From assembly GCF_000735695.2 (NCBI RefSeq), contig NZ_JASZ02000018.1, positions 1 to 48,203 of the forward strand: DNA of 48,203 bases. The letters run 5' to 3'. Below the pieces are notes generated by a model. It was not told where the DNA came from. It saw only the letters and a list, made by a program, of their open reading frames with translations, and did no database searches. How positions within the stretch are numbered: position 1 is the first letter of the stretch; every line of letters starts with the position of its first letter. The stretch comes from Kaistella haifensis DSM 19056 (GTDB taxonomy: Bacteria; Bacteroidota; Bacteroidia; Flavobacteriales; Weeksellaceae). Shown here piece after piece: positions 41,358 to 44,316 of this stretch. The translations under genes and the position numbers were made by a program.

Positions 41358-41729
41358 ATGAACACAGAAAACACCAAAGCGCAAATGCGGAAAGGAATTC
41401 TGGAATTCTGTATTTTGAGTCTTATCGACCGACGAGAAATGTATGTTTCCGACTTGATCGACGAACTCAAAAAAGGAAAACTGGATGTGGTGGAAGGTAC
41501 CCTTTACCCTCTGCTTACAAGATTGAAAAACGGAGAATTCCTCTCGTACCGATGGGAAGAATCTACCGGAGGACCTCCAAGAAAATACTATCAGATTACC
41601 GAAAAAGGCAAACTTTTTCTCGCTGAACTGCTCAATACTTGGAATGAACTGACCGAATCTGTAAACCAAATTACTAAAAACAATAACCCGACGAACGCAC
41701 CTGAAAGCTCGTTCCAGCCAAATACTTAA
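41358..41729 (+). CDS. PadR family transcriptional regulator
   Basis: A 123-residue winged-helix regulator. The fold starts after NTENTKAQMRKGILEFCILSLI, and the wing region VVEGTLYPLLTRLKNGEFLSYRWEESTGGPPRKYY is the PadR signature (about residues 47-80). PadR proteins are often small repressors controlling a neighbouring membrane protein. The PspC gene begins 4 bp after its stop, and the two are one operon; the regulator is expected to control the pair. Confidence 0.92.
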   Translation: MNTENTKAQMRKGILEFCILSLIDRREMYVSDLIDELKKGKLDVVEGTLYPLLTRLKNGEFLSYRWEESTGGPPRKYYQITEKGKLFLAELLNTWNELTESVNQITKNNNPTNAPESSFQPNT

Positions 41730-41733
41730 AACT

Positions 41734-43431
41734 ATGAACAAGACACTCTCAATAGGACTCGCCGGTTTCTCTTTCACTATCGAGGAACATGCATACATCA
41801 AACTCAGCGATTATCTTGCAGCACTCCGAAACTCTTTGGATGCAAACGAAGCAGATGAGGTAATGCACGATATCGAAATCAGAATGGTGGAAATTTTCAA
41901 AGATACTCTTGGTAAAAGAGAAGTTATCAACGATGCTGATGTGGAGAAAGTAATTTCCCAAATCGGAAAACCTGAGCAAATCGAAGAACAAGAAGAAGCT
42001 TATTTCTCGGAAAAAAATGCCAGAAAAGAAAGTAAATCTGCAGGTAATAGCGGCCAAAAACAACTTTTCCGTGATCCTGAGAAACAAAAAATCGCTGGAG
42101 TTTGCGCCGGATTGGCTCATTATGTTGGAATGGATATCAGTGCGATGCGCGCCATTTGGTTAGGAATCGCGATTTTAGGAGTTTTCACTGCGGCAATTTC
42201 TACTTCATTAATCATTTTAATTTATGTAATTCTTTGGATCGTTTTGCCAAAAGCAGAAACTGCAACAGATTTTTTGAAAATGAAGGGAAAGCCCATGAAT
42301 TTTGACAATTTAAAAAATGAATCCAACAAATTGGTGCAATTCGCCAACGAATCTACCCAAAGAGTAGGCGAGATTTACAACGAAAATAAACCTTATATCA
42401 ACACAGCCGGAAGCGGTTTGTGGAACGTGATAAGATATGTTTTAGGAAGTCTTTTCGCTGTCATGGCATTAATGTGTATTGTAGGTGCATTTTTCCTCTT
42501 CGGAATGTTTGGGACCAATGAATTTCCACCGCTAAGAGAATTTAATTTTCTTTTTGAAGATGGCGGAATGAGCAATGTTTTATACGGAATGATGATTATC
42601 GGAGTATTGATTCCTGCACTATTATTCAGCTTGCTTTCCATTAAATTAATCTCACCGAAAACTCAATTAAAAAACGTTGGATATGTAGTTGGAGCTTTAT
42701 TTTTGATCCTTTTGGCATTCGGAACTTATTTCGGAATCAACATGGCGAAAAAAGATATGATCTACAAAGGTCATAAAGAAGACACCGAAAACGTGGCGAT
42801 CAATACCACTTCCGACAGTTTGTATGTAGACGTAAAACAGGTCGTGATTCCACAGAATTTCATCGGATATGATGACGATATTTATTCCGACAAAAAAGAA
42901 GTGTATGAAGAAGATTATCCTTACGTAAATGTAACCCGAAAAGCGGATGTGAAAACACCATATTTAATCATTAAAAAAGAAGGAGAAGGTTACAATGTTC
43001 CGATTCAACTGAACGTTCCCGTGGAAATTGAAAACAACAAAATCCTCTTGCCAAATTTCGTGAAATATCCTTACGCTCACCGTTTCCGCGATTATAATGT
43101 GAATTATGAATTGGTAGTTCCGATGTCCACAAAAGTTTTCAAACTGAAAGAAAACGGCGTAAACCTCGATGGCGACATTGATGGCGACGGAAATGATGAT
43201 GAAAATGACGACAACGGCGTGGTGATCGAAAAAGATAAAATTAAGATCAACGGTTCTACGATTCAGTACAATTCCAATGATGCCGACAGTGTAATCATCA
43301 ACGGAAAAAAAATGCCAAAAGTAGAAGCTGATAAAGTGATCGATTCCATGAAAGTAGATTTTGATAAACTTCAGGATGTGAATATTTCCATCAAAGACGG
43401 GAAGAAAGAAATCTCCATCAAAACTAAATAA
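41734..43431 (+). CDS. PspC domain membrane protein with N-terminal HAAS-like domain
   Basis: A 565-residue protein. The N-terminal 90 residues (YIKLSDYLAALRNSLDANEADEVMHDIEIRMVEIF, given by position 21-55) resemble HAAS/DUF1700-type domains found beside PadR regulators. A PspC domain follows (about 111-173) with RDPEKQKIAGVCAGLAHYVG and a membrane segment. More membrane segments lie near residues 235-258, 283-302 and 312-333. The remaining C-terminal part (about 340-565) is a soluble domain with a very acidic stretch. PspC senses envelope stress in Enterobacteria; the role here is inferred. Confidence 0.85.
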   Translation: MNKTLSIGLAGFSFTIEEHAYIKLSDYLAALRNSLDANEADEVMHDIEIRMVEIFKDTLGKREVINDADVEKVISQIGKPEQIEEQEEAYFSEKNARKESKSAGNSGQKQLFRDPEKQKIAGVCAGLAHYVGMDISAMRAIWLGIAILGVFTAAISTSLIILIYVILWIVLPKAETATDFLKMKGKPMNFDNLKNESNKLVQFANESTQRVGEIYNENKPYINTAGSGLWNVIRYVLGSLFAVMALMCIVGAFFLFGMFGTNEFPPLREFNFLFEDGGMSNVLYGMMIIGVLIPALLFSLLSIKLISPKTQLKNVGYVVGALFLILLAFGTYFGINMAKKDMIYKGHKEDTENVAINTTSDSLYVDVKQVVIPQNFIGYDDDIYSDKKEVYEEDYPYVNVTRKADVKTPYLIIKKEGEGYNVPIQLNVPVEIENNKILLPNFVKYPYAHRFRDYNVNYELVVPMSTKVFKLKENGVNLDGDIDGDGNDDENDDNGVVIEKDKIKINGSTIQYNSNDADSVIINGKKMPKVEADKVIDSMKVDFDKLQDVNISIKDGKKEISIKTK

Positions 43432-43530
43432 TGAGAGTGGATAAGCAAAGGCGGAGGTATTTATCAATATAAAAAATCCGCTTTTCGCTTGTTCCTCCAA
43501 TGCAAATTTTAATAAAATTTAACACCGGAA

Positions 43531-43563
43531 TTTGTATTTTAATTAAAAAAAATGCTAATTTCG
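43531..43563 (+). promoter_or_regulatory. Promoter candidate for the 20-codon gene
   Basis: TTTG (43531-43534), 21 nt and TAATTTCG (43556-43563) match the flavobacterial pattern with one mismatch in the -7 box. Transcription would start near 43570, giving a leader of about 43 nt. Confidence 0.5.
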
Positions 43564-43612
43564 TACAGTTAATTTCGATCAGCTATCAGTTAACATTTAA
43601 AAACATCAAATC

Positions 43613-43675
43613 ATGGTACAGTTCGTTATTGAAATCGCAATCAAAATCATCGATTTCGCAAGCAGTTTATTTTAA
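43613..43675 (+). CDS. Candidate small gene: 20-residue amphipathic peptide
   Basis: The ORF ATG 43613 to TAA 43675 encodes MVQFVIEIAIKIIDFASSLF. Polar residues Q3, E7, K11, D14 and S18 fall at i, i+4, i+8, i+11 and i+15, which is one face of an alpha helix, with an otherwise hydrophobic face. This resembles phenol-soluble modulins or small type I toxins. The ORF has its own promoter candidate 50 bp upstream and a 12-bp perfect terminator 27 bp downstream, and lies between, not inside, the flanking operons. It is too short to be sure; it could instead be an sRNA that happens to contain a short ORF. Confidence 0.45.
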   Translation: MVQFVIEIAIKIIDFASSLF

Positions 43676-43701
43676 TTAAAATATTAATTCAATATATTTG
43701 T

Positions 43702-43734
43702 AAAGTATAACCAATATATGGTTATACTTTTTTG
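43702..43734 (+). terminator. Terminator of the 20-codon transcript
   Basis: AAAGTATAACCA (43702-43713) pairs perfectly with TGGTTATACTTT (43719-43730), loop ATATA, followed by TTT and G. It ends 16 bp before the next start codon (43750), so it belongs to the short upstream unit, not to the PspC gene, which ends 270 bp earlier. Confidence 0.85.
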
Positions 43735-43749
43735 TTTAAATATTTCAAA

Positions 43750-44316
43750 ATGAAAAAATTCTTCGGAAAACTAATCTTAAAACTCCTCGGGTGGAAAATC
43801 GCTCTCGAAGGCGATGTCGATAATCTCAACCGATGCATTCTCGTGGTAGCTCCACATACTTCTAATTCCGAATATATTTTAGGGAATTTGGCATATTGGG
43901 CGCTAGGTAAGCCGCTGAAAATCATCATCAAAGATGCGCATACCAAAGCTTGGTATGGCTTTATCGTAAAAGCTTTGGGTGGAATTGGGATTGATCGTTC
44001 ACAGAAAAACGATTTGGTCAATTTCGTAGCCAATGAGTTTAAAAAAGACGATTTCAGCCTCGTAATCACTCCCGAAGGAACCAGAAGTTGGGTGCCGAAA
44101 TGGCGCAAAGGTTTTTATCACATGGCGCTCGCTGCGAAAGTTCCGATTGTAGTTGCTGCAGGCGATTTCAAACACAAAGAAATTCACCTCGGGTACAAAA
44201 TTTCCGTAGAAGATTTAGAGACCCGAACCTTCGAAGATATCATGCAGGAAATGGAAGATTATTACAAAAAAATCACTCCGAAATATCCTGAAAAATGGAA
44301 TCCTAAAATCTATTAA
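43750..44316 (+). CDS. PlsC-like 1-acylglycerol-3-phosphate acyltransferase family protein
   Basis: A protein of about 188 residues with the acyltransferase block arrangement: VAPHTSNSE (His36), KDAHTKAW and LVITPEGTRS. Family members move an acyl chain to a lysophospholipid at the inner membrane. The first motif reads HTSNSE, so the usual Asp of HX4D is Glu41, which is unusual. An upstream in-frame TTG at 43732 lies within the preceding terminator, so the ATG at 43750 is used. It is 15 bp upstream of the thioesterase gene, but the other genes of that run concern menaquinone. Confidence 0.85.
   Translation: MKKFFGKLILKLLGWKIALEGDVDNLNRCILVVAPHTSNSEYILGNLAYWALGKPLKIIIKDAHTKAWYGFIVKALGGIGIDRSQKNDLVNFVANEFKKDDFSLVITPEGTRSWVPKWRKGFYHMALAAKVPIVVAAGDFKHKEIHLGYKISVEDLETRTFEDIMQEMEDYYKKITPKYPEKWNPKIY

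Follow-up and report, generated by a model that had tools for sequence, protein, structure and literature searches.

What is encoded in the short interval between a pspC gene and an acyltransferase gene of Kaistella haifensis DSM 19056, and what might its product do? The interval lies in a stretch of 48,203 nucleotides (the window), which is one of the 96 contigs that make up a 2.85-Mb source genome. All features described here are on the forward strand. A neighbouring module begins with a gene for a PadR-like winged-helix regulator (41358-41729; Pfam PadR 66.8 bits, cut-off 27). It is adjoined by pspC (41734-43431), which encodes a multidomain membrane protein with PspC (58.7 bits) and LiaI-LiaF-TM (39.3 bits) matches, both above the Pfam cut-offs, and with HAAS (18.4 bits) and Toastrack (21.5 bits) matches, both under the cut-off of 27. 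The PlsC-like acyltransferase gene follows at 43750-44316 (Pfam Acyltransferase 42.2 bits, cut-off 23); we regard it as a neighbour and do not think it part of the function of the gene described below.

An earlier note, made from the sequence alone, had described in this interval a promoter-like TTTG-N21-TAATTTCG, a 20-codon open reading frame (ORF) and a 12-bp perfect hairpin with a T run, and all of these are present where it placed them, between the two genes that it named. The TTTG stands at 43531-43534, 21 nt ahead of the predicted -7 box TAATTTCG (43556-43563). After another 49 nt comes the ATG of the ORF (43613-43675; 20 codons plus stop), which encodes the peptide MVQFVIEIAIKIIDFASSLF. 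The stop codon is followed, after 26 nt, by the hairpin (43702-43730; loop of 5, then the T run), the putative intrinsic terminator of the peptide RNA. Two further elements flank this unit: a TTTAACA element (43518-43524), 31 nt from the -7 box and possibly a regulator or upstream promoter site, and TATATTTG (43693-43700), which is probably the -7 box of the acyltransferase promoter and lies outside the peptide gene proper.

Homologues of the ORF were collected from 166 loci by a script that demanded ATG-[AG]T-[ATC]CA-[AG] and 19 to 24 residues, a filter that biases the length as well as positions 2 and 3. Some genomes occur twice in this set, as a named record and under a handle of our own, and all tests were run on distinct sequences. 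The 109 distinct ORFs (81 distinct peptides) are 20 (102), 21 (6) or 22 (1) residues long and end in three different stop codons. Because the start-motif filter affects positions 2 and 3, pN/pS was recomputed on codons 4-20. For 45 independent close pairs it is 0.20 in the peptide frame compared to 1.18 and 2.45 in the +1 and +2 frames. In these pairs 109 of 195 changes are synonymous and 86 are not; permutation gives an expectation of 59 +/- 5 synonymous changes, with a maximum of 77 (n = 2000).

The sequence ahead of the start codon points the same way. An A is found at -3 in 119 of 138 distinct loci, and positions -11 to -14 are most often A. In Flavobacterium johnsoniae such a context is reported to promote initiation, with adenines at -3, -12 and -13 acting as positive determinants of translation (PMC6847099).

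The homologues show what the earlier note had proposed to look for, conserved residues with synonymous changes (pN/pS 0.20, and a peptide in 36 of 36 Kaistella genomes) together with a conserved terminator (134 of 138 loci). It had also named the pattern that would speak for a small RNA or a chance ORF, a frame lost while the hairpin is kept. This pattern occurs once, at locus L184, and there the hairpin also adjoins the promoter of the acyltransferase gene. The reverse, a frame kept without the canonical hairpin, was seen more often (L167, L169, L246, L262, L263 and group g11). That the locus is a pure non-coding RNA or carries a chance ORF, for which L184 would be the example, is extremely improbable given the low pN/pS, the constant length and a frame that is maintained where it overlaps a drifting pspC frame. 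We rejected both candidates, chance ORF and sRNA, on this codon evidence, including that from the overlap with the end of pspC, and we consider it nearly certain from the comparison of homologues that the peptide gene is real.

The peptide itself has a simple design. The earlier note had given polar residues at positions 3, 7, 11, 14 and 18 only; those five stand, and S17 has to be added to Q3, E7, K11, D14 and S18. On a helix the six positions still cover a single face, an arc of 120 degrees. They are polar in 75-79 of the 79 distinct 20-residue forms (counting G, Y and H as polar), and every other position is polar in 0-1. The hydrophobic moment of the window peptide is 0.46, compared to 0.19 +/- 0.09 in 20000 shuffles (fraction as high 0.0047), and the mean over the 79 forms is 0.49. 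Net charge is -1 in 67 of the 79. The pairs E7-K11 and K11-D14 would be suitably spaced for intrahelical salt bridges.

Next, we asked how widely the gene is distributed. A protein search finds the peptide in all 36 Kaistella genomes, that of the window included, with one match each, no stops and E values from 4e-7 to 0.008. When a collection of named genomes is scanned for the acyltransferase instead, 78 of the 80 loci examined (the best of 148 encoding a relative) have a peptide ORF upstream, in Kaistella, Chryseobacterium, Epilithonimonas, Cloacibacterium, Soonwooa and Halpernia; only L058, at a contig end, and L092 lack one. A profile of 38 peptides matches 271 of 320 Weeksellaceae genomes at E up to 0.1 (263 of 306 good-quality genomes), with a single match in 253 of the 271 and more than one in 18. 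Matches at E < 1e-6 were taken as sound, and individual inspection covered part of the 271.

More distant members were found by position in genomes that lack a profile match, and were accepted on position, length and hydrophobic pattern rather than on score. They include G048, G277, G281, G041 and G039, 14 of 14 genomes of group g11, 3 of 3 of g33 and 3 of 6 of g24, and also G305-G307. Profile and position combined, the peptide is present in 27 of 33 Weeksellaceae genera. It was not found in g9, g16, g21, g25, g26 and g31; genome completeness is 79% in g21 and 83% in g26. An order-wide profile search matched 70 of 395 genomes, 69 of them Weeksellaceae; the sole match outside the family (G399, E 0.006) covers residues 6-19 within a 49-aa frame.

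Some additional matches were inspected individually. One in G028 (contig C33) is a true second copy beside pspC. The second profile matches L174 and L175 have no such ORF, nor do the weak matches in G046 (L172), G307 (L170) and G317 (L171); G307 and G317 have copies elsewhere. G049 carries a further copy (L169) with a promoter-like box of its own, near neither pspC nor the acyltransferase gene. A mobile origin was considered and rejected, as tblastn of the peptide against plasmids and phages gave no match, a weak test for a 20-mer. Taken together, our computations show a coding sequence under purifying selection, for an amphipathic peptide, in most of the Weeksellaceae.

The signals around the ORF are conserved as well. 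A TAnnTTyG box lies upstream in 130 of 138 distinct loci compared to 5.8 +/- 2.3 in shuffles, and a terminator-like hairpin lies no more than 140 nt past the ORF in 134 of 138 compared to 5.7 in shuffles (the four exceptions are L165, L167, L169 and L072). Both agree with the self-contained transcription unit of the earlier note, with a predicted transcript of about 165 nt. Its promoter was right in one half: the -7 box TAATTTCG is exact in 33 of 36 Kaistella copies, and the TTTG (-33) half is poorly kept, with TTyG or TTG in place in only 16 of the 36. A TTTAACA-like element (TTTAACA, ATTAACA, TTTAAAA or TTTATAA) starts 37-39 nt before the start of the -7 box in 35 of the 36. This conservation of the TTTAACA-like element in 35 copies, set against TTTG in 16, suggests that the peptide promoter is regulated. 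As a spaced pair, TTTAACA and TAATTTCG occur once in the genome. There is also an inverted GTTAAT/ATTAAC near the predicted transcript start, which with the TTTAACA-like element resembles a regulator site.

The hairpin appears to serve two genes. A TAnnTTTG box stands within a few bases 5' of it in 132 of 134 relatives that have the hairpin, and at just 1 of 95 terminator-like sites in the window is such a box found directly ahead. With its probable -7 box in this place, the acyltransferase mRNA would start with the terminator of the peptide gene, the hairpin supplying its first bases. In this segment (43693-43733, -7 box included) the leading hairpin might act in attenuation or as a 5' stabilising stem. 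The same arrangement of -7 box and hairpin is present without a peptide in L184 and L178. An inverted repeat serving as an operator was disfavoured: the arms lie at variable distance from each other while the T run is retained, and pairing is preserved chiefly by G-U changes, 1 of 17 pairs having changed on both sides.

The hairpin sequence is nearly constant across Kaistella and Chryseobacterium and unique in the genome, which raises the question whether the transcript is also a small regulatory RNA, with a hairpin conserved beyond the need of a terminator. We hold such a dual-function RNA to be improbable. The constancy may instead stem from the double use of the sequence as terminator and as start of the acyltransferase transcript. 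Furthermore, the 5' UTR is less conserved than the ORF, the window has no Rfam match at gathering score, and the copies beside relocated pspC genes, described below, carry other hairpins.

To which neighbour, then, is the peptide gene tied? Among loci found by the peptide, pspC is upstream on the same strand in 80 of 88 and the acyltransferase gene downstream in 85 of 88 (88 of 91 loci counted; L170-L172 dropped for having no ORF). The genomes in which pspC and the acyltransferase gene are apart separate the two: in 7 of 9 such genomes examined (G049, G283, G305, G306, G307, G010 and G028) a peptide gene lies directly behind pspC. The exceptions are G281, with the peptide beside the acyltransferase, and G285, with a pspC fragment and no peptide. 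In G010 and G028, both Kaistella, the relocated pspC (L262 and L263) has a divergent peptide of its own, MAQLFFEIVLKIVAFVTSFLN, with a different terminator, and the canonical copy is still beside the acyltransferase gene. The peptide gene is mostly linked to pspC.

The linkage is not uniform. In six g12 genomes viewed, whose peptides equal or resemble those of named Epilithonimonas, about 2 kb separate pspC from the peptide, which remains on the side of the acyltransferase. A peptide-like ORF occurs in G041, where pspC gave no match, and pspC adjoins the acyltransferase gene without a peptide between them in L177, L178, L182, L184, L191, L193 and L195. Outside Weeksellaceae, none of 20 pspC loci (50 genomes searched) has an M[VI]Q-type ORF behind pspC; other short ORFs passing the filter occur at 4 of these 20 (L228, L229, L231 and L235). 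In L259 and L260, where pspC is missing, frames of 1921 and 1343 open codons lie on the opposite strand upstream of the peptide.

These data bear on the possibility that the ORF is a leader peptide, whose translation would control, by attenuation, whether transcription passes the hairpin and enters the acyltransferase gene. Promoter, short ORF, terminator and gene order, with the acyltransferase downstream in 85 of 88 loci, all have the form expected of a leader. Against it, the acyltransferase appears to own a -7 box behind the ORF, G049, G283 and G305-G307 have copies without an acyltransferase, and G010 and G028 have second copies behind the relocated pspC. Conservation of amino acids extends over the entire peptide, and the consensus fold shows the terminator and a weak helix inside the ORF. 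We consider a leader peptide very unlikely, largely refuted by the copies that are decoupled from the acyltransferase.

In some groups the peptide gene and pspC overlap. The start of the peptide precedes the stop of pspC by 41-53 nt, and its frame differs, in g11, g33, g24 and two of the three g29 genomes. For g11 and g33 (16 of 17 ORFs pass the prefix filter; L218 dropped) the overlapping part has 5 synonymous and 2 other changes in the peptide frame; the two remaining frames, of which one is that of pspC, have 1 and 5 apiece. These numbers are small. The whole peptide frame in these groups has 19 synonymous and 11 other changes (12 distinct ORFs, 6 pairs). In L215 and L217 pspC stops earlier and the peptide frame is still open. 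From these small numbers it looks as if the peptide frame is the constrained one in the overlap.

In a midpoint-rooted PspC tree of 56 hand-picked loci, one clade (support 83/80) unites the overlapping and abutting forms with the peptide-less PspC of g25. Another (100/100) contains all 26 stand-alone forms, interspersed with four that have no peptide. Read in the other frame, the pspC tail D-x-T-D yields the M[IV]Q with which the peptide begins. Origin of the peptide by overprinting is therefore possible. A fuller scenario, which we offer tentatively and with more doubt than conviction, is that a microprotein of 20-21 residues originated in a Weeksellaceae ancestor through overprinting of the pspC 3' end, later became a separate regulated unit in the Chryseobacterium group, and is a new small subunit of the PspC stress sensor.

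For the function of the gene, our preferred reading, held with moderate confidence and built on sequence comparison, is a 20-residue membrane microprotein acting together with the product of the adjacent upstream gene, the PspC-type envelope-stress sensor. The peptide would form a helix whose polar face spans 120 degrees, sit in or on the inner membrane, bind the PspC/LiaI-LiaF transmembrane part and tune the signal that would run through HAAS to PadR. Against this reading count, besides the exceptions to the linkage, the HAAS and Toastrack matches that fall under their cut-off. In the overlap clade it would presumably be translated from the pspC message. With a promoter of its own, as predicted in the Chryseobacterium group, the dose of the peptide could be adjusted apart from pspC.

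The main rival has the peptide acting freely on the bilayer, like a type I toxin or a stress depolariser, with PspC as sensor or protector rather than partner. Its size, narrow polar face and hydrophobic moment would suit such a role, as would its own promoter and terminator and the extra copies in G010, G028 and G049. PSP systems guard against envelope stress (PMC11237479), which is in keeping with a protective PspC. We nonetheless judge a free membrane-active peptide unlikely. The gene is mostly single-copy and spread over most of the Weeksellaceae rather than patchy, and it has no plasmid or phage match (again, a weak test for a 20-mer). No antisense -7 box is conserved: on the minus strand, TAnnTTTG, the one box type searched, occurs at no position in more than 3 of 138 loci. 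Finally, a net charge of -1 in 67 of 79 forms is unlike that of most lytic peptides.

Genome annotation misses most protein genes of 20 codons. The gene described here has strong evidence of selection over most of the Weeksellaceae, is fixed in length and is genetically tied to an envelope-stress sensor. It offers a defined entry point, simple to delete, for studying how PspC/HAAS-PadR systems are set in Bacteroidota. It may also be a case of gene birth by overprinting, and if that reading is true the peptide would be among the shortest conserved protein genes.

The gene is apparently undescribed. Three family members gave no match in Pfam or NCBIfam at E up to 10 (HMMER filters can lose such short queries), in line with the earlier note, which knew of no described family of this form. 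A PADLOC scan gave nothing like the peptide gene, and no such peptide is named among the matches listed from open-licence PubMed Central.

The earlier note had likened the peptide to phenol-soluble modulins and type I toxins, a likeness that is not supported beyond size and amphipathicity for a gene that is mostly single-copy, present in most of the family and usually beside pspC. Staphylococcal phenol-soluble modulins are similar in length and amphipathicity; the present peptide matches no Pfam or NCBIfam model, belongs to a different phylum and is mostly a single gene beside pspC. Type I toxins of the TisB kind likewise have a short amphipathic helix, charges on a narrow polar face and a short transcript of their own, whereas the gene described here is present in most of the Weeksellaceae and gave, in the search for minus-strand TAnnTTTG boxes, no sign of an antisense antitoxin. 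Small membrane proteins such as MgrB, CydX, AcrZ and KdpF, which bind a larger membrane protein, are alike in having one conserved hydrophobic helix encoded beside or overlapping a membrane-protein gene. Compared to them, our peptide has only 20 residues, is amphipathic rather than uniformly hydrophobic, and has a partner that is putative. Among described systems, those combining HAAS-PadR, PspC, LiaI-LiaF-TM and Toastrack (PMC11237479) include no peptide of about 20 residues in the accessible parts of that account, and it is their theme (i), as set out there, that padR and pspC of the window resemble.
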